Assembly (NCBI GenBank): GCA_021775315.1
Contig: JAJFIC010000033.1
Coordinates: forward strand, 1 to 56,286
Length of the DNA: 56,286 bases
Origin: Paracoccaceae bacterium
GTDB taxonomy: Bacteria > Pseudomonadota > Alphaproteobacteria > Rhodobacterales > Rhodobacteraceae
Direction: 5' to 3'
Shown here: piece after piece, positions 8,303 to 33,501 of the stretch
How positions within the stretch are numbered: position 1 is the first letter of the stretch
Layout of the letters: each line of letters starts with the position of its first letter
Notes under the pieces: generated by a model
The model's input: the letters and a program-made list of their open reading frames with translations, nothing else
What the model was told of the DNA's origin: nothing
Databases searched by the model: none
Program-made: the position numbers and the translations under genes

Positions 8303-8467
8303 TGAAACGGGTGGGTTTGTTGGTGTTGAAGCGGTTCCGCACAAATGAAACTGTTAGCAAGATCACGCCCTTCGCAGGTTACCTCAATTGAAAACCGCAC
8401 TCCGGCCTCGAATTGCGAGAGGAAGTCGATGCCAGAACATGGGACTTGAAGCAAACGTAGTCTGTGT
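8303..8467. other. Intergenic DNA flanking an IS remnant
   Basis: No open frame with gene character. It continues directly into the IS3-type OrfA remnant and may be further decayed element sequence, but I could not identify an OrfB match on the minus strand. Confidence 0.4.
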
Positions 8468-8623
8468 GTCCTGCCCCCATCGCGTTAAGTGCTGCAGCTC
8501 GTCGCTGCGCTGGTGTCGTTAAGGCTTTCCCCGCAGATATTTCAGGACAAAATTAACCAAACTGGTATCCGTCAGAAGACGCTTCAGCTTGGCGTTCTCA
8601 TCTTCCCGCGATTTAAGACGATG
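8468..8623 (-). pseudogene. IS3-family OrfA C-terminal remnant (frameshifted)
   Basis: Read on the minus strand from 8623, the DNA encodes SREDENAKLKRLLTDTSLVNF, the leucine-zipper tail typical of IS3-group transposase OrfA. It then passes a frame change near 8525 into LTTPAQRRAA, which resembles the start of OrfB. No start, no catalytic DDE region and no terminal inverted repeats remain. It is a small scar of an insertion sequence at the 3' end of the DUF1127 gene. Confidence 0.65.
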
Positions 8624-8865
8624 GGTTCGCGGTCGGCGATTTTTTTCCCAAATTTCTGATGGAATTTCTGGTTCACCTGTTTGCGGGTAAGTCCCATGTC
8701 CGCAAGCCTGTCGTCGGGCATTGTACGCAGTTTGTGCGCCTGGCGGTATTTGCTATCCAGTTTTACCAACCAGCGCAGGATGCTAAGCAATATAGGCGTC
8801 CTGTTCATTTGAATATTGCTGCGCATTGCGGCGTTGCTTGCGGGGCTTGTAATATTTGCTGGCAT
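8584..8865 (-). CDS. DUF1127 small protein, C-terminus altered by IS scar
   Basis: A 93-residue protein with the DUF1127 signature (LDSKYRQAHKLRTMPDDRLADMGL, about residues 37-60, quoted in part): basic, arginine-rich, with a conserved DxGL turn. DUF1127 proteins in alphaproteobacteria are small regulators, some linked to phosphate, RNA metabolism or stress; the role here is unknown. The last ten residues or so (NRGKMRTPS) are translated out of frame from the IS3 OrfA remnant. The original C-terminus has thus probably been replaced by insertion and decay. Confidence 0.7.
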   Translation of the reverse strand: MPANITSPASNAAMRSNIQMNRTPILLSILRWLVKLDSKYRQAHKLRTMPDDRLADMGLTRKQVNQKFHQKFGKKIADREPIVLNRGKMRTPS

Positions 8866-9141
8866 GTTAGGATTCCTTTGGTTTCAAAGTTTGTCTTGAT
8901 GGGTTCATCTTTGCGCGGGCTGCGTAATGCTGGCGTCATGTGAGGCGGTTGAAAAACGGGTTTCACGCAAGTTATTCGTCAAAAACCGCATCGACCCGCA
9001 AAAAACCGGTATTTTTGATTGGTTCGCGCTGTCGACTTTTGTTGTGCTAACAAGGAACTGACTGAAAAAAAGGCGACCACAATGTGGCCGCCAGGTTGCC
9101 CGGAAGAGGTAAAGCTAACGGGGGTTCAAGTATTAAAGTTT

Positions 9142-10563
9142 CTACAGACGACGCGCCGCGTGAGCGTGAACAAGATCATCCGCGTCAGGGTGCACAATGT
9201 CTGGGTTTACTGGATCAACGACAAGGTGCCATTGGTTCATTTGCACCTGAAGTGCTGCACCGCCTAGTGGCGCACTTGGTGCCTGGAAAAATTCCTGATC
9301 GCCAATACTAAGGGTTTTCATCAGGCTGCCGAGCTTGATTTGAGTAGCCTCAAATTCATCTGGTGCAACTTTCTTGAAGCCCAACTTATCAAGCGCTGCG
9401 AGAATCTGCGCATCGTCAAAGGGATAGGCACCGCTTTGGGGAAGCCGAAAACTAGGCGGTTTGCCGGAATCTTTGTCAGGAAAACGTAACAAGGCGCGGG
9501 CTACGAACCTTACTTGCTTTTGTGGATGCTCGACAATTTGCAGGTCAGTCTTTGGTTTCTTACCATTGCGCATTGCCGTCAAATAGGCCGTGTTCACATC
9601 GTTTATATAGGCGTTGGTCAAGAACATCCGAAACGCAAATTCTGTTTTCCAAGCAAGGCCAAGTCCGCTGTAATGCGGGTGGCCCAAGGCATCCTGACCC
9701 ATGTAAAAACAGTTTTCACCCTGCCAGCCACCGGTCTTTGCAAGATCCGGGTAATCATCCTTGTTTTGGAAATATAGATAATCCCCGGGCACGGCAATCA
9801 CCGAACCGCGTTCATAATCACTTGGTATATCAACAGTTTGGGCGAAAAAACTCGTGGCTAGTGTGTTTGTTCTTTTTGCGTCTTTTCCGGCTGGCAAGTG
9901 CCAGGCCCCTACAAATGCAGGGCCATGACTTGCCACCAGCCCGTCCAGTTTTTCCGAGCCATAGCTGTTCAGGCAGCCCAGCATAATGGCCAGTTGCAAT
10001 GCGCCAGCGCATTCGCCGCGAAATGGTGTGATCGCCTGTAATGCGGTTGATAGCGGTACATCTGGGTTCTGCATGAACCGAAAACCAGCCCAGGTTTCGG
10101 CCTTAGCAATATGTTCCCACGCATCATCTGGTGGGACAAAGGGAAGCTGTTTGGTAAGAATGCTTTTCCCGGTTTTGTTGCCGGGCGCGAACAGGGCTTC
10201 AAGGTTTCCAAGATACCCAAGGGTAGGGGGCACGCCATCGACGGCCTCGACATAATCGCCATCAATGTCGCCGGCGCAAATGGCCCTCATTGCGGCGATG
10301 ACGCCTTTGCGAAGCGCAATATTGTCAGCTAATTCTTTGGCATCGGCAAAGGCATGCTTAAGGCTGTCTTTCGCCATCGCGATCACGATTTCGACAGACA
10401 GATCGTCAGCCATAGACAGGACTTCGCCCATATCACCGGAATTGAAGGCCGCAGACTTCCATTGGTCTGGCGGCACCAAAGCGTATTTCAGCACAGACTC
10501 AAGGGCTTGCTCTTCTAGCTCTATGGCTTTTCCGCCAATCCATATCCCACCCGGATGTCCCAA
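9142..10563 (-). CDS. Protein with Tgl-like bacterial transglutaminase core
   Basis: A 473-residue protein of unassigned role. Its centre matches the core of Bacillus Tgl, the spore-coat protein-glutamine gamma-glutamyltransferase. An Glu-Cys pair sits in FRGECAGALQLAIM (E184, C185; Tgl has FECATA, with catalytic Cys116 and Glu115). About 100 residues later comes VPGDYLYFQNKDD...GGWQGEN (E283; Tgl has PGD-YFKNP...WQGEN, Glu187), then a His-rich HPHYSGLG segment resembling Tgl GHGIG. The flanks (1-150 and 320-473) have no relative I recognise; no signal peptide. The start is a TTG at 10563 with GAGGA ten bases upstream; the first in-frame ATG is residue 45. It is divergent from the BTAD regulator. 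Function inferred: protein cross-linking or deamidation. Confidence 0.65.
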   Translation of the reverse strand: MGHPGGIWIGGKAIELEEQALESVLKYALVPPDQWKSAAFNSGDMGEVLSMADDLSVEIVIAMAKDSLKHAFADAKELADNIALRKGVIAAMRAICAGDIDGDYVEAVDGVPPTLGYLGNLEALFAPGNKTGKSILTKQLPFVPPDDAWEHIAKAETWAGFRFMQNPDVPLSTALQAITPFRGECAGALQLAIMLGCLNSYGSEKLDGLVASHGPAFVGAWHLPAGKDAKRTNTLATSFFAQTVDIPSDYERGSVIAVPGDYLYFQNKDDYPDLAKTGGWQGENCFYMGQDALGHPHYSGLGLAWKTEFAFRMFLTNAYINDVNTAYLTAMRNGKKPKTDLQIVEHPQKQVRFVARALLRFPDKDSGKPPSFRLPQSGAYPFDDAQILAALDKLGFKKVAPDEFEATQIKLGSLMKTLSIGDQEFFQAPSAPLGGAALQVQMNQWHLVVDPVNPDIVHPDADDLVHAHAARRL

Positions 10564-10741
10564 ATTTCCGTTTCCTCACCAAATGTTTCATTTTGATCAG
10601 ACTAGCCGCACTTTCTTGGTGACGGGTGTCAGAAATCCGTCAGAAATTTTTTGACCAAACCCTGCGCGCAAAATTCGCGTTGCCAAACCGCTTGCCTTTC
10701 TAGATGACTTAGGCATGTGCGAAGTCTATACTGAAGCTTGA
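10564..10741. promoter_or_regulatory. Divergent promoter region between tgl-like gene and BTAD regulator
   Basis: 178 bp separate the two divergent starts, so both promoters must lie here. TTGCCAAACC near 10680 and GTCTATACT near 10724-10732 (a TATACT -10 hexamer) could drive the regulator gene. I could not find a clear inverted repeat operator by eye. Confidence 0.35.
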
Positions 10742-13700
10742 ATGGGCATTTATTTTAAACTTTTAGGGGGCCCGGTTTTCAAACGGCCTGACGGCAACAT
10801 TGCGCGACTTCCGACACGAAAATCGGAAGCAATGTTGGCGTATCTAGTTGAGCGAAGACACGAGGCAGTCTCGCGCGAGGTGCTTGCGGGCTTGTTGTGG
10901 CCGTACAGTGCAGAAGAACAAGCACGTGCCAGCTTAAGGCAAGAAATCTCGGTTTTGCGAAAGGCGCTTGGACCAGAAATAGCGCACGTGATTGTCCCTC
11001 AAGGGGACCGGATCGAACTTTCGATGGACGGGCTGGATGCAGATATCTGGCGCATCCGGGACAGCCCGGCTGCGGATCAAAGTCCAGCCAACGTAATCGC
11101 CTTGCTGGAACTTTATATCGCCCCGTTTTTGGACAGTTTCAGCATTCGCAGCCAACCCTTTTCAGATTGGGTATGGACGACCCGACAAGCGCTTGAGACC
11201 GAGATTTTGAACATCGGTCACTCAGCACTTCGCCATTGCATTGATAATCAGGACGCAGAAAACACCACTCAAATCGCGCTTCATCTGTGCCGCATTGATC
11301 CGACATATGAACAAGCCCATCGCGCACTGATCGAGCACTATCTTCGCGCCGGTGATGATGCTGCCGCGAGCCGCCAATTGCAGAAGTGTAAAGCTGCCCT
11401 AAAATCCAACCTAGATGTGGACGTGTCAGACGAGACACTACTTCTTTTTGAAACCATCACCGCTGACGCCATAGCCACGTCATCAAACGCCCAGAAGGCG
11501 GCACAAGAACCCGATCCGGCGGTTCCCCAACGGCGGTTCATTACGGCCCTTTCAATCTCGGTCAACCTAGAGATTGACGATCCTGAAGATTTTGAAAAAG
11601 CAGCCAGCGAAATAAACGCGCAAATCCGAAATTGCGTTGAAAACGACGGCGGCACGGTTTTGCAGGTTTCTGGTGACCATGTTCTCGCCTGTTTCGGTTA
11701 CCCTATTGGCCACGACACTGACCCTGACACGGCGGTCTTTGTTGCGCTTTCTGTTCTTGAGGTGTTGAATTCGTACAGCAATGTTGCGCCCAAAAGTCAG
11801 ATCGGCCTTTCGTATGGTCAGGCTTTGCTGTCCTATCCAACGGGAAGTGGCTCCAAGGGTCCCAATTTTTCCGGACCAGTATTTCGCGCAGCCGAAACCA
11901 TTTGTTATCAAGGTCCGTCAGCGGCTGTTATAGTGGACCAAACGTTAGAAAAAGTCCTGTCACCTGCCATCGTTTTGGAACTGATAGAGGGCGAAGCTTC
12001 GGCAAAACGGGCTTTGCCCCGTCACCAGTTTAGCAAGCAACCGCACCAGAACGTCGTCCCCGAACGAACCCACCCGATGGTCGGACGAGAGGAACAGCTT
12101 GGCCATCTTCTCGGGTTGCTAAAACAAGCCAAACACGGGCAGGGCTCGGTCGCGGCGATTTTGGGCGATCCAGGTGAAGGTAAATCCCGGCTGGTTCAGG
12201 AAGCCTCGGAAAACGCCAGCGCAGATGGTTTTGAAATCCAAGTCTTTCAGGGAAACCGCAGCCAACGCAAATCTACGTTTGCACCGGTACTGGATCGCAT
12301 GTTCCGCGCAGGTGCATTTTCACAAGACCATGCAACGCCGGCTGAAATTGAGCGCTGGTTGTCTTCTCTCGCGCCGGAACTGGTATTGGCGGCCCCTTAT
12401 ATTGGGTCACTTATCGACAAGCCGGAATCCCAGTTCCCGAATAGCTCTGAAATATCTGAGCAAGCCAAAGAAGCCGCCCTGAATATATTTACGGCACAGG
12501 TTAAAGCGCGAAATAAAAGCCAACCAATTTGTTTGATTTTTGAAGACATCCAGTGGTTTGATCCAACGACGCTCGAAGCGATTTCCGGCCTGATTGACGT
12601 TGTATCAGATGCGCCCATTCTTGCGGTGATGGTGTCGCGGAAAGGCGAACCACCCGAAATCGTCAATCACCCATTTGTGCGGCGTATAAAATTGAACCCA
12701 TTGCAACCACAAAGCGCCGAAACCCTGCTGCGCGGCTTGCTGTCCAAAACTCTTGCCACAGATGCGATAATCAAAAACGTTCTTGAACGCGCCGAAGGCA
12801 ATCCGTTGGTGTTGGAAGAATTCGCCAAATCAATTGCGTTTCGTCAGGCGAATGCACAAGGCGTGGATACGAGCCTTGCACCCGCCAATTGGTCTGACAG
12901 CTCTGATGATCTGATTGAAACGCCGGGCAGCTTGTTGCCGCTACTGCTGTCCCGGATCGACAGCGTCCCAGGTGCCATAGAAATCCTGCAATATGCCTCA
13001 GTTTTTGGCCGCCAATTTTCCAAAGACCAACTTGCGCGGGTTTTGCCATCCTCTGACAGGTGGACATCTGTTTCGTCTGACCTTGAGGAAGCCGGGATTA
13101 TCTTTGCGTCAGCGCGGGGAAGTGACATTTCGTACATTTTCAAGCACACGCTGATCGGCGAGGCGATCTACGCTACAATTCTAAAGCGCGAGCGGCCTGC
13201 CATGCACATTGCAGCGGCGCAAACCCTTTTGTTGGACAAGCAACGCATTCGTTATTCTGAGGTGGCGCATCATTTCAAAACAGCCGAAGCCTATGAAAAG
13301 GCCGCTCGGTATTTTGAACTGTCAGGCGATCAGGCTGCTCAGGTCTCGGCTTTTGCAGAGGCGATTTCGGAATATCATGACGCGATTGCAATGACTGGTC
13401 AAATGCCAATCGCCCCTGAACGGTTGCGAAAAGAACTGGCGCTGAACAGGAAGACCGCAGCCCAACTTATCGCCTTGCACGGCATCCCAACCTCCGAAGC
13501 CAAGCGCTATTACACCAACGCGCAAACGCTAAGCGCAAGACTGGGGGATCAAGAAGAAATCGTGAACGCAAGTTGGGGTCTTTGGAGCATCCACTTAATC
13601 GTGGCGGAACTGGATTCATGTTTGGAAACGGCAACTGCGTTGAACCAGGCAACCAATAATCTGGACTCGCCAGCCGCCAGTTTGATTAATCAGTATATGC

Positions 13701-14362
13701 TTGGGGTTACACAGGCCTATCGCGGTGCACTACCGCAGGCCGCTGATCACCTAGAGACAGTTCTGAGTATTTATAGCGAGGACATCAAAGAAGAGCTGCA
13801 GATGCGGTTCGGCATGGATATCGGCCTAACCGCAAACAGCTTTTTGGGCTGGGTTTATGCTTTGCTTGGGCGATCCCAAGACGCGGATGTAGCGGCGGCA
13901 CGTTCAGTTCAAATGGCACACAAAAACGACAATGGTCTGAGCCACGTTTTTGCAAATGTCTTCAGCGCGACTAAATGTTTGTTTCAAGAGCAACTTAAAG
14001 AGGCCCGGAATCACGCCCTGCTTGCACTTAAAGGCGCCGATACGATGGGTTATATGCAATGGAGCGCGCAAGCAAGAATTCAACTCGCACGTATCGCTGA
14101 TTTATTGGGCGAAGCCGGCGCGCTTGAAGCTTTGCAATTGGCCCGAGAGGATTATCTGTCCACAGGCATGGTTCTTGCACGCGCCTACGCAGACGTTTGG
14201 ATCGCTGACGCCCAAATTCGACGTGGGCAGCACCAAAACGCGCTCGGAACACTTGATGCGCTGCAGGTCCATACAGACTTTTCAAACGAACGGTATTTTG
14301 AATTTGCGGCACAAAACACGCGCGCAAAGGCGCTGCAACAAATGTCTGAAGCTGCACATTGA
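10742..14362 (+). CDS. BTAD regulator with degenerate cyclase domain, AAA ATPase and TPRs
   Basis: A 1206-residue multidomain signalling protein. The N-terminus is a winged helix of the OmpR/SARP type (about 1-90, RKSEAMLAYLVERR...LWPYS). A BTAD tetratricopeptide-like domain follows (about 95-240), then a class III nucleotide-cyclase-like fold (about 260-410; VSGDHVLACFGYP, RAAETIC). The first metal-binding Asp is replaced (ITALSISVNL), so cyclase activity is unlikely. A STAND/AAA ATPase has MVGREEQL at 446, Walker A GDPGEGKS at 475-482 and Walker B CLIFEDIQWFD near 598. The C-terminal 400 residues are TPR-like helices. It looks like an ATP-dependent transcription switch. It probably acts on the divergent Tgl-like gene. 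An ATG directly follows the TATACT box, so the leader would be very short. Confidence 0.85.
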   Translation: MGIYFKLLGGPVFKRPDGNIARLPTRKSEAMLAYLVERRHEAVSREVLAGLLWPYSAEEQARASLRQEISVLRKALGPEIAHVIVPQGDRIELSMDGLDADIWRIRDSPAADQSPANVIALLELYIAPFLDSFSIRSQPFSDWVWTTRQALETEILNIGHSALRHCIDNQDAENTTQIALHLCRIDPTYEQAHRALIEHYLRAGDDAAASRQLQKCKAALKSNLDVDVSDETLLLFETITADAIATSSNAQKAAQEPDPAVPQRRFITALSISVNLEIDDPEDFEKAASEINAQIRNCVENDGGTVLQVSGDHVLACFGYPIGHDTDPDTAVFVALSVLEVLNSYSNVAPKSQIGLSYGQALLSYPTGSGSKGPNFSGPVFRAAETICYQGPSAAVIVDQTLEKVLSPAIVLELIEGEASAKRALPRHQFSKQPHQNVVPERTHPMVGREEQLGHLLGLLKQAKHGQGSVAAILGDPGEGKSRLVQEASENASADGFEIQVFQGNRSQRKSTFAPVLDRMFRAGAFSQDHATPAEIERWLSSLAPELVLAAPYIGSLIDKPESQFPNSSEISEQAKEAALNIFTAQVKARNKSQPICLIFEDIQWFDPTTLEAISGLIDVVSDAPILAVMVSRKGEPPEIVNHPFVRRIKLNPLQPQSAETLLRGLLSKTLATDAIIKNVLERAEGNPLVLEEFAKSIAFRQANAQGVDTSLAPANWSDSSDDLIETPGSLLPLLLSRIDSVPGAIEILQYASVFGRQFSKDQLARVLPSSDRWTSVSSDLEEAGIIFASARGSDISYIFKHTLIGEAIYATILKRERPAMHIAAAQTLLLDKQRIRYSEVAHHFKTAEAYEKAARYFELSGDQAAQVSAFAEAISEYHDAIAMTGQMPIAPERLRKELALNRKTAAQLIALHGIPTSEAKRYYTNAQTLSARLGDQEEIVNASWGLWSIHLIVAELDSCLETATALNQATNNLDSPAASLINQYMLGVTQAYRGALPQAADHLETVLSIYSEDIKEELQMRFGMDIGLTANSFLGWVYALLGRSQDADVAAARSVQMAHKNDNGLSHVFANVFSATKCLFQEQLKEARNHALLALKGADTMGYMQWSAQARIQLARIADLLGEAGALEALQLAREDYLSTGMVLARAYADVWIADAQIRRGQHQNALGTLDALQVHTDFSNERYFEFAAQNTRAKALQQMSEAAH

Positions 14363-32231: not shown

Positions 32232-33467
32232 TCAGTCATGCGTTATCGGATCCAACGGCCCGGCCTTGCGCGCGACGGACATGATGTAGGTGATAACCAC
32301 GATCGCCAGAACCGTGGTTATGATCATCAGGCCTAGCAGCGGATAAGGCCCGCGTTCAGGCGTTAAAACAGCCCCGGTCAGAACCGCAAGCGAAGCACCC
32401 CCCAACAGCATGATCGCCCCACCAAGGCCCGATGCGCTGCCCGCCAATTGAGGGCGCACTGACAGCATACCGGCATTGGCGTTCGGCAAAACCATGCCGT
32501 TGCCAAGCCCGACCGTCACCATAAAGCCGAAAAAGAACATCGGGTGGGTGCCGCCAGCCAGCAATGCGATAAATGACAGGCACAGCCCGGTCAGCGTGAT
32601 AATGGCCCCGTACAGCATCATTCGGTTGATGCCGACGCGTACGGAATACCGCCCCGACAGAAAGTTCCCCAGCAGATAGCCAAGCGACACGATGCCGAAA
32701 TACAACCCCAGACCTGTTGAGCTGAGACCAAAGAAGTTGGTGCCGACAAAAGGCGCGCCGCCCAGAAAAGCAAAGAAAGAACCACTGCCGAAAGCGGCCG
32801 TTAAGGCGTAACCCCAAAACCTGCGCGAGCGGAACAATTCAGGATAGTCCCTTACCTGCGCCATGAAATTGGGTGATGGGTTAAGGTTGGTTTCCCCAAG
32901 ATCAAAATAGATGATCGCGCTAATAATCGCTCCCAACACCAGCAGCATACTGAAATTTGCCTGCCAGCCGAAAAGTGAATCCAGATAGCCACCAAGCGCC
33001 GGGGCCATCATTGGCACCAGCGACATGCCCATCGTCACATAGCCGATCATGCTGGCGGATTGTTCCGCGGGAACCATGTCGCGCACAATCGCGCGGGACA
33101 AAACCATACCGGTGGCAATCCCGGCCTGTATCATGCGAAATGTCAAAAACACCTCGACACTGCTTGCCAGCAAGCACCCGATCGTCGCCACCATGAATAT
33201 CACCAGCCCGACCAGAATAACCGGACGACGACCATACCTGTCAGACATCGGGCCGATCACCAATTGCAGGGCGCCGGTGACGCCCAGATAAAGCGAAATG
33301 GCCAATTGCATCAGCGAATAGTCTGACTCAAAATAAGCAGCCATATTCGGCAAGGATGGCAGGAAAATATTCATCGACAGCGCAGACAAGCCCGCCAGTA
33401 ACACTAGGGTCACAATATGTGGTGGGGTGTTCCGGTTCAGGAATTTGGCTTGCGGTAATTCGGACAT
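32232..33467 (-). CDS. Bcr/CflA-type MFS transporter
   Basis: A 411-residue permease with twelve predicted membrane segments of the major facilitator superfamily. The drug:H+ antiporter signature between helices 2 and 3 is GPMSDRYGRRPVI, and NIFLPSLPNMA in helix 1 is typical of the Bcr/CflA group. It lies directly upstream of pccR on the same strand. A perfect ATTGCAT palindrome precedes it. The neighbourhood hints at an organic acid or toxin substrate, but none can be deduced. Confidence 0.88.
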   Translation of the reverse strand: MSELPQAKFLNRNTPPHIVTLVLLAGLSALSMNIFLPSLPNMAAYFESDYSLMQLAISLYLGVTGALQLVIGPMSDRYGRRPVILVGLVIFMVATIGCLLASSVEVFLTFRMIQAGIATGMVLSRAIVRDMVPAEQSASMIGYVTMGMSLVPMMAPALGGYLDSLFGWQANFSMLLVLGAIISAIIYFDLGETNLNPSPNFMAQVRDYPELFRSRRFWGYALTAAFGSGSFFAFLGGAPFVGTNFFGLSSTGLGLYFGIVSLGYLLGNFLSGRYSVRVGINRMMLYGAIITLTGLCLSFIALLAGGTHPMFFFGFMVTVGLGNGMVLPNANAGMLSVRPQLAGSASGLGGAIMLLGGASLAVLTGAVLTPERGPYPLLGLMIITTVLAIVVITYIMSVARKAGPLDPITHD

Positions 33468-33501
33468 AGGAAAGAAGTATTAGGCAATTCTTTGGATGTC
33501 C

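Follow-up and report, generated by a model that had tools for sequence, protein, structure and literature searches.

Transglutaminases of the TGL family are known as spore-coat enzymes of Bacillus, as far as the portions of the literature examined describe them. In Bacillus subtilis Tgl (4P8I, PF20085), according to the available excerpts of one report, the nucleophile is Cys116; the C116A, E115A and H200A variants had no detectable activity, and E187A retains about 60% (PMC6490927). The PimR-type SARP-LAL regulators of Streptomyces begin with SARP-type domains and continue into a cyclase/ATP-binding half, and their operators are described, in the sections available, as repeats with an 11-bp period (PMC5930380). 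The hdcA/hdcB/antiporter/hisS clusters encode a PF02329 enzyme with a Ser-Ser junction; histamine-secreting clusters are defined by the antiporter beside hdcA, again from a source available in part (PMC8465708). In mammals, the excerpts at hand describe histaminylation by transglutaminase 2, a transfer of the amine onto glutamine that would be the same type of reaction as the one proposed below. Mammalian transglutaminase 2 belongs to an enzyme family other than TGL. Among the best matches listed in the open-licence literature, within the text available for them, there was no description of a module combining TGL, SARP-type regulator and histidine decarboxylase (HDC), or of bacterial histaminylation.

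We analysed a window of 56,286 nucleotides from an alphaproteobacterial genome (Paracoccaceae bacterium, contig JAJFIC010000033.1) that encodes a TGL-family protein. The following features were assigned to its gene, with residue conservation counted over seven proteins (the window protein and six relatives).

9142..10563, minus strand: TGL-family transglutaminase gene, 473 codons, TTG start
9580..10410, minus strand: TGL (PF20085) core, residues 52-328, located by hmmscan, with the same coordinates given by the genome search
10009..10014, minus strand: codons of Glu184-Cys185, equivalent to Tgl Glu115-Cys116 in the profile alignment; kept in 7/7 proteins
9715..9717, minus strand: codon of Glu283, equivalent in the alignments to Tgl Glu187, a residue of the alternative dyad; Glu in 2/7 proteins, Leu in 5/7
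9673..9675, minus strand: codon of His297, probably equivalent to Tgl His200 (weak alignment and spacing); kept in 7/7 proteins
9145..9579, minus strand: C-terminal extension, residues 329-473 (145 residues), alignable in alphaproteobacterial relatives
9072..9092, minus strand: terminator-like hairpin and T run directly 3' of the TGL gene

The open reading frame at 9142-10563, for which the first-pass annotation gave no strand, lies on the minus strand and is, judged by homology, a real gene, because a Planktotalea arctica protein (locus L001) matches it at ~54-55% identity, the best segment spanning residues 6-469. By our own reading a GAGG stretch precedes the TTG start, and the open frame continues four codons further upstream, to 477 in all. 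The motifs FRGECAGAL, PGDYLYFQN, WQGEN and HPHYSGLG are present in the translation, and the annotation had numbered E184/C185 and E283 correctly. The protein is a member of Pfam TGL, PF20085 (E 1e-11, 45.0 bits vs a cut-off of 23.7), the sole family listed by hmmscan. The annotated presence of a TGL-family core outside spore-formers was borne out by three sequence and profile comparisons, which are not fully independent of one another. Its description of unfamiliar N- and C-terminal regions needs correction at the N-terminal end, much of which is ordinary TGL with a match from residue 52, whereas it holds for an insert at about residues 97-165 (alignments judged by eye) and for the C-terminal 145 residues, which have no Pfam or NCBIfam match.

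The solved chains of Bacillus Tgl comprise 254-260 residues, compared with 473 in the window protein, which differs also in its insert, its C-terminal extension and its adjacent SARP-type regulator, and which falls far below the cut-off of the spore-coat transglutaminase equivalog NF002869 (26.3 bits vs 307). No signal peptide was seen by eye, and the protein is therefore probably intracellular. Structure prediction from three-row alignments gave a mean pLDDT of 42.4 for the full protein and 35.4 for residues 52-335, too low for a usable model of the NlpC/P60-like fold, with its active site in a tunnel, or of the distance between C185 and E283. The terminator-like hairpin is one of three such sites in the region, against 3.4 expected by chance; the TGL gene of L001 is also trailed by a similar hairpin, identified by eye. 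Small basic proteins are encoded downstream of the TGL gene both in the window (8584-8865, minus strand; DUF1127-like, at 20.9 bits vs a cut-off of 23.3) and in L001 (7664-7891, plus strand; no Pfam match).

Comparison with solved structures located the putative active site. In a phmmer search the window TGL matched 7c9j at E 0.0034, with PGDYLYFQN and WQGEN aligned; two ribosomal proteins returned by the same search (E 0.37 and 0.9) were dismissed as chance matches. A profile built from six alphaproteobacterial TGL proteins, including that of the window, matched 7c9j at 8.3e-07 and Bacillus Tgl 4p8i at 3.1e-05, and a hand count along the 4p8i chain places GEC at residues 115-116 and the variable E/L of W-x-G-[EL]-N at residue 187. 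Both profile alignments end before His297, which falls on a His of 7c9j in the weak single-sequence alignment (E 0.0034) only; the Glu-to-His spacing is 13 residues in 7c9j and 14 in the window TGL. The window protein and Bacillus Tgl have in common the TGL core and, in the same order, the Glu-Cys pair, the WQGEN Glu and the His. Family membership and conserved active-site residues are both matters of observation, and by these alignments it is Glu184, Cys185 and His297 that correspond to the residues Bacillus Tgl needs for activity. The first-pass annotation had instead made Glu283 the key partner, which the comparison does not support: of the seven proteins, those of the window and L001 have Glu at this position and the rest have Leu. 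The annotation had also named lack of conservation of E283 as grounds for rejecting a Tgl-like enzyme. Although that lack was found to the letter, activity is not thereby refuted, because Bacillus E187A keeps about 60% of its activity; on this analogy Glu283 is less important than Glu184, Cys185 and His297, and its loss is no argument against activity.

Relatives of the window TGL were sporadic. PF20085 was detected in 2/385 sampled genomes of the class (the window's own and G148) and in 4/299 of the phylum, own included, and a relative of the window TGL in 2/394 sampled family genomes, namely its own and G682. The family of G148 held a relative in two of 17 genomes (G1044 and G148 itself, both of one genus). 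Two of 11 candidate stretches from a scan of genome contigs held a relative, one in Planktotalea and one in Puniceibacterium antarcticum. Among plasmid records, queries with the window and L011 proteins yielded a Salipiger sp. CCB-MM3 plasmid only, which brings the TGL loci to seven with that of the window. All four relatives scanned (L001, L002, L010 and L011) exceeded the curated PF20085 cut-off, and no internal stop codon occurred in any TGL member from the genome searches. No relatives were found in two scans of viral contigs, and phage records gave no match to the L009 protein, the one query used there. The TGL and the regulator tree both separated the window and Planktotalea from the other five loci, hereafter the sister clade (support 97/98 and 100/100).

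The TGL gene is transcribed divergently from a large regulator gene, and the intergenic region contains a repeat.

10742..14362, plus strand: divergent SARP-type regulator, 1206 aa, with Trans_reg_C, BTAD and AAA_16 domains by domain scan
10628..10647, minus strand: nine-base direct repeat at 11-bp period, a putative operator for the regulator encoded opposite

The start codons of the two head-to-head genes are 178 bp apart. The domain scan, run on the window regulator only, gave Trans_reg_C at 26.9 vs 26.2 bits, BTAD at 36.6 vs 22.1 and AAA_16 at 72.5 vs 32.6, with the DNA-binding domains N-terminal and the ATPase half following, which is the SARP-LAL or PimR-type layout. Residues 263-1203 resemble the cyclase/kinase fusion TIGR03903, at 248 bits, below the cut-off of 706. 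The window regulator differs from the PimR type in occurring in Alphaproteobacteria and in its putative target, a transglutaminase gene and not a macrolide regulator.

Homologues of this regulator stand head to head with TGL in all seven loci, the six outside the window having been identified by blastp; the figure of 7/7 speaks for the constancy of this pairing, not for its specificity. Pairwise identities of the TGL proteins, trimmed at chosen start codons, and of the regulators correlated closely over 21 pairs (Spearman 0.92), a value reached by 12 of 5040 relabellings, or by 2 of 720 when the near-copy L025 was left out. Untrimmed frames gave 0.93; these frames, which also served for blastp, residue comparison and trees, run from stop to stop and include some residues before the start codon. 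Gene order is thus conserved and the trees are concordant, and by these comparisons TGL and regulator are co-inherited. No third gene was common to all seven loci at >60 bits among frames of >=50 aa. G148 and G1044, from one genus, have much of their flanks in common; L001 and L002 each carry, beyond the SARP gene and in opposite orientation, a 30%-identical regulator gene, of LacI type in L002; and a distant MFS-like frame of the window (32235-33479) matches a frame in L010.

In the window, ATTTCTGAC occurs twice, 11 bp apart, at 10647-10628, and the same repeat is found in L001. At the 11-bp spacing, which had been noticed before it was tested, the best matches in six of the seven intergenic regions add up to a score of 41, compared with 30.9 (sd 1.9) for shuffled sequences, none of 500 of which reached 41; the next best of 23 spacings scored 34. 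The signal comes mostly from the window and L001, and that of the four other regions alone was reached by 8 of 500 shuffles. Spacing 11 was tied with others in L002 and L015, and was beaten by spacing 22 in L010 and by spacing 9 in L011. By analogy with the PimR-type operators, these repeats may be binding sites of the regulator, which probably controls the TGL promoter.

Furthermore, the next gene on the same strand after TGL encodes an HDC-like pyruvoyl enzyme in all five sister-clade loci (L002, L010, L025, L011 and L015). PF02329 was matched over its cut-off in L002 and L010 (252 and 236 bits vs 25) and also in G682, the Salipiger gene (L015) is annotated as histidine decarboxylase, and the L025 gene was recognised by blastp. 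Between the TGL stop and the start of the HDC-like gene lie 2 nt in L002, 19 nt in L015 (as annotated) and 72 nt in L010. The HDC-like proteins are 73-98% identical to one another, and their TGL partners 40-94%. The motif SSF is present in all five and falls where the two chains of 1hq6 meet; we take this Ser-Ser junction to be the cleavage site. Histidine is the likely substrate on this homology; it is uncertain because the two proteins scanned, from L002 and L011, score below the TIGR00541 equivalog cut-off (239.8 and 238.7 bits vs 346.65).

PF02329 was otherwise sparse, with matches in 2/385 class genomes (G148 and G289, the latter having no PF20085 match if the two 385-genome samples are assumed to be identical) and in 0/295 family genomes, a sample that missed G682, which carries it. 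The window genome (G000, rated 100% complete as a draft in 111 contigs) has no PF02329 match, and neither has the Planktotalea genome. No control genome gave a match in the scan that covered G000, although in another scan the same model matches G148, G682 and G1035. The position of an HDC-like gene beside TGL in all five loci is not due to chance. By the trees it is one ancestral event and not five, because the HDC link and the Glu-to-Leu change share one branch. Six further plasmid records from Alphaproteobacteria carry a more divergent HDC; three of them were searched whole and contained no TGL. Methylocystis and Rhizobium plasmids (L016, L017 and L018) carry lone pyruvoyl HDC-like genes ~40% identical to that of L002, and the incomplete gene tables list no antiporter beside those of L016 and L017.

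The sister-clade loci differ from the hdcA/hdcB/antiporter/hisS clusters in the adjoining TGL gene and in that neither hdcB nor a histidine/histamine antiporter is among the 17 features listed for L015, whose gene table is incomplete. Among the flanking ORFs scanned, a subset from loci other than L025, MFS transporters are encoded near the HDC-like gene in L002 and L010, at differing positions. The lack of an antiporter beside the sister-clade HDC among the flanking genes scanned hints at intracellular use of the product. The TGL-HDC pair of L011 (G682) is followed by a large open frame (8429-13501) that is cut by the end of the stretch and contains four Laminin_G_3 stretches, with no homologue >60 bits in the other loci. 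None of three proteins compared with the PADLOC defence models (TGL and regulator of the window, decarboxylase of L002) gave a match. Unlinked PLP decarboxylases, two in G000 and one in G1034, were considered as an amine source for the window clade and set aside: the two scanned (all but L031) fall far below every equivalog cut-off.

Our preferred reading, which we hold to have a somewhat better than even chance of being correct, is a regulated transglutaminase coupling a glutamine substrate to an amine, which in the sister clade would be histamine. We infer the transglutaminase chemistry of the window protein from homology, and histamine from gene order. Under the probable control of the regulator encoded head to head, Cys185, aided by Glu184 and His297, would form a thioester with the acyl group of a glutamine side chain, and a primary amine would then displace the cysteine. 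This amine would, in the sister clade, probably come from the pyruvoyl decarboxylase encoded just downstream, histamine from histidine being the simplest case, whereas in the window species, which has no PF02329 gene, it would need another source, such as a lysine, a polyamine or an amine made by an unlinked decarboxylase. A regulated transglutaminase that draws its amine from the neighbouring decarboxylase in one clade, and from some other source in the window clade, accounts for the gene order and the co-inheritance as well as for the active site. The new role outside the spore coat proposed by the first-pass annotation gains from the divergent SARP-type regulator (7/7 loci) and the HDC-like gene (5/7), while its pairing of transglutaminase with deamidase stands as it was, the two activities not being separable by sequence.

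A glutamine deamidase or isopeptidase, in which water resolves the acyl-enzyme and the decarboxylase of the sister species has a separate job, would also be consistent with the absence of a PF02329 gene from the window genome, and deamidases, proteases and transglutaminases all occur among related papain-like families, according to the part of a survey available (PMC10318531). However, the closest characterised family is that of a transglutaminase, and a linked amine-producing enzyme in 5/5 sister loci is what would be predicted for an amine-using enzyme, and we regard simple hydrolysis as unlikely. We give a similarly low probability to the formation of a small amide, such as glutamyl-histamine or an amine-capped peptide of specialised metabolism, without protein modification. 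Streptomyces antibiotic production is under SARP-type regulators in the excerpts available (PMC5930380, PMC10936776), and no third gene common to all loci turned up as a possible source of a protein substrate; yet no biosynthetic cluster was recognised in the part of the flanking genes examined, and Bacillus Tgl works on proteins in the sections seen of its description (PMC6490927).

That the TGL protein might be a maturation factor of the pyruvoyl decarboxylase, with an HdcB-like part, is suggested by its position beside the decarboxylase in 5/5 sister loci and by the HdcB gene adjoining hdcA in Limosilactobacillus reuteri. This is very unlikely, considering that HdcB belongs to another family (PF17528), for which hhalign finds no relation to the TGL profile (probability 0.56%), and that the window species and Planktotalea retain TGL with no PF02329 gene. 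Least credible of all is a decayed copy of a Bacillus tgl gained by lateral transfer; the sporadic distribution (2/394 family genomes, own included) would be compatible with such an origin, but the members from the genome searches have no internal stops, the putative catalytic residues are kept in 7/7, regulator and TGL are co-inherited, and the spore-coat equivalog score is remote from its cut-off (26.3 vs 307).

Returning to the amine-joining transglutaminase, its boldest form is one in which histamine may be placed on protein glutamines. This would amount to a prokaryotic monoaminylation system, in which a SARP-type activator drives a transglutaminase and, in one clade, a histamine-making decarboxylase, histamine is attached to glutamines of cellular proteins, the Leu in place of Glu283 suits the acceptor side to the imidazole amine, and a different small amine serves the window clade; as a whole we offer this tentatively and think it rather unlikely. 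The co-inheritance of regulator and transglutaminase, taken with the HDC-like neighbour in the sister species, points to a function outside sporulation that makes use of an amine, and raises the possibility of bacteria that couple histamine or other small amines to further molecules. Should the amine be histamine, the system would be a bacterial counterpart of the protein histaminylation described in mammals, as far as the excerpts on the latter go.

A second TGL subfamily was found in three genomes of the same phylum (L007, L009 and L013:6682-7833), the latter two being 54-55% identical to L007. These proteins belong to PF20085 like the window TGL, but they have Ser and not Glu before the Cys (SCYRATEY or SCYRASEY) and no conserved His where the window TGL has His297, and they carry EGSW, invariant among them, in place of GEN. 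Their genomes have no PF02329 match, and no amine-linked neighbours were identified in the ten ORFs scanned around genes of this type, the neighbours being unrelated and mostly housekeeping. In G963, a TGL gene of this second subfamily lies near algH-like and ruvX-like genes.
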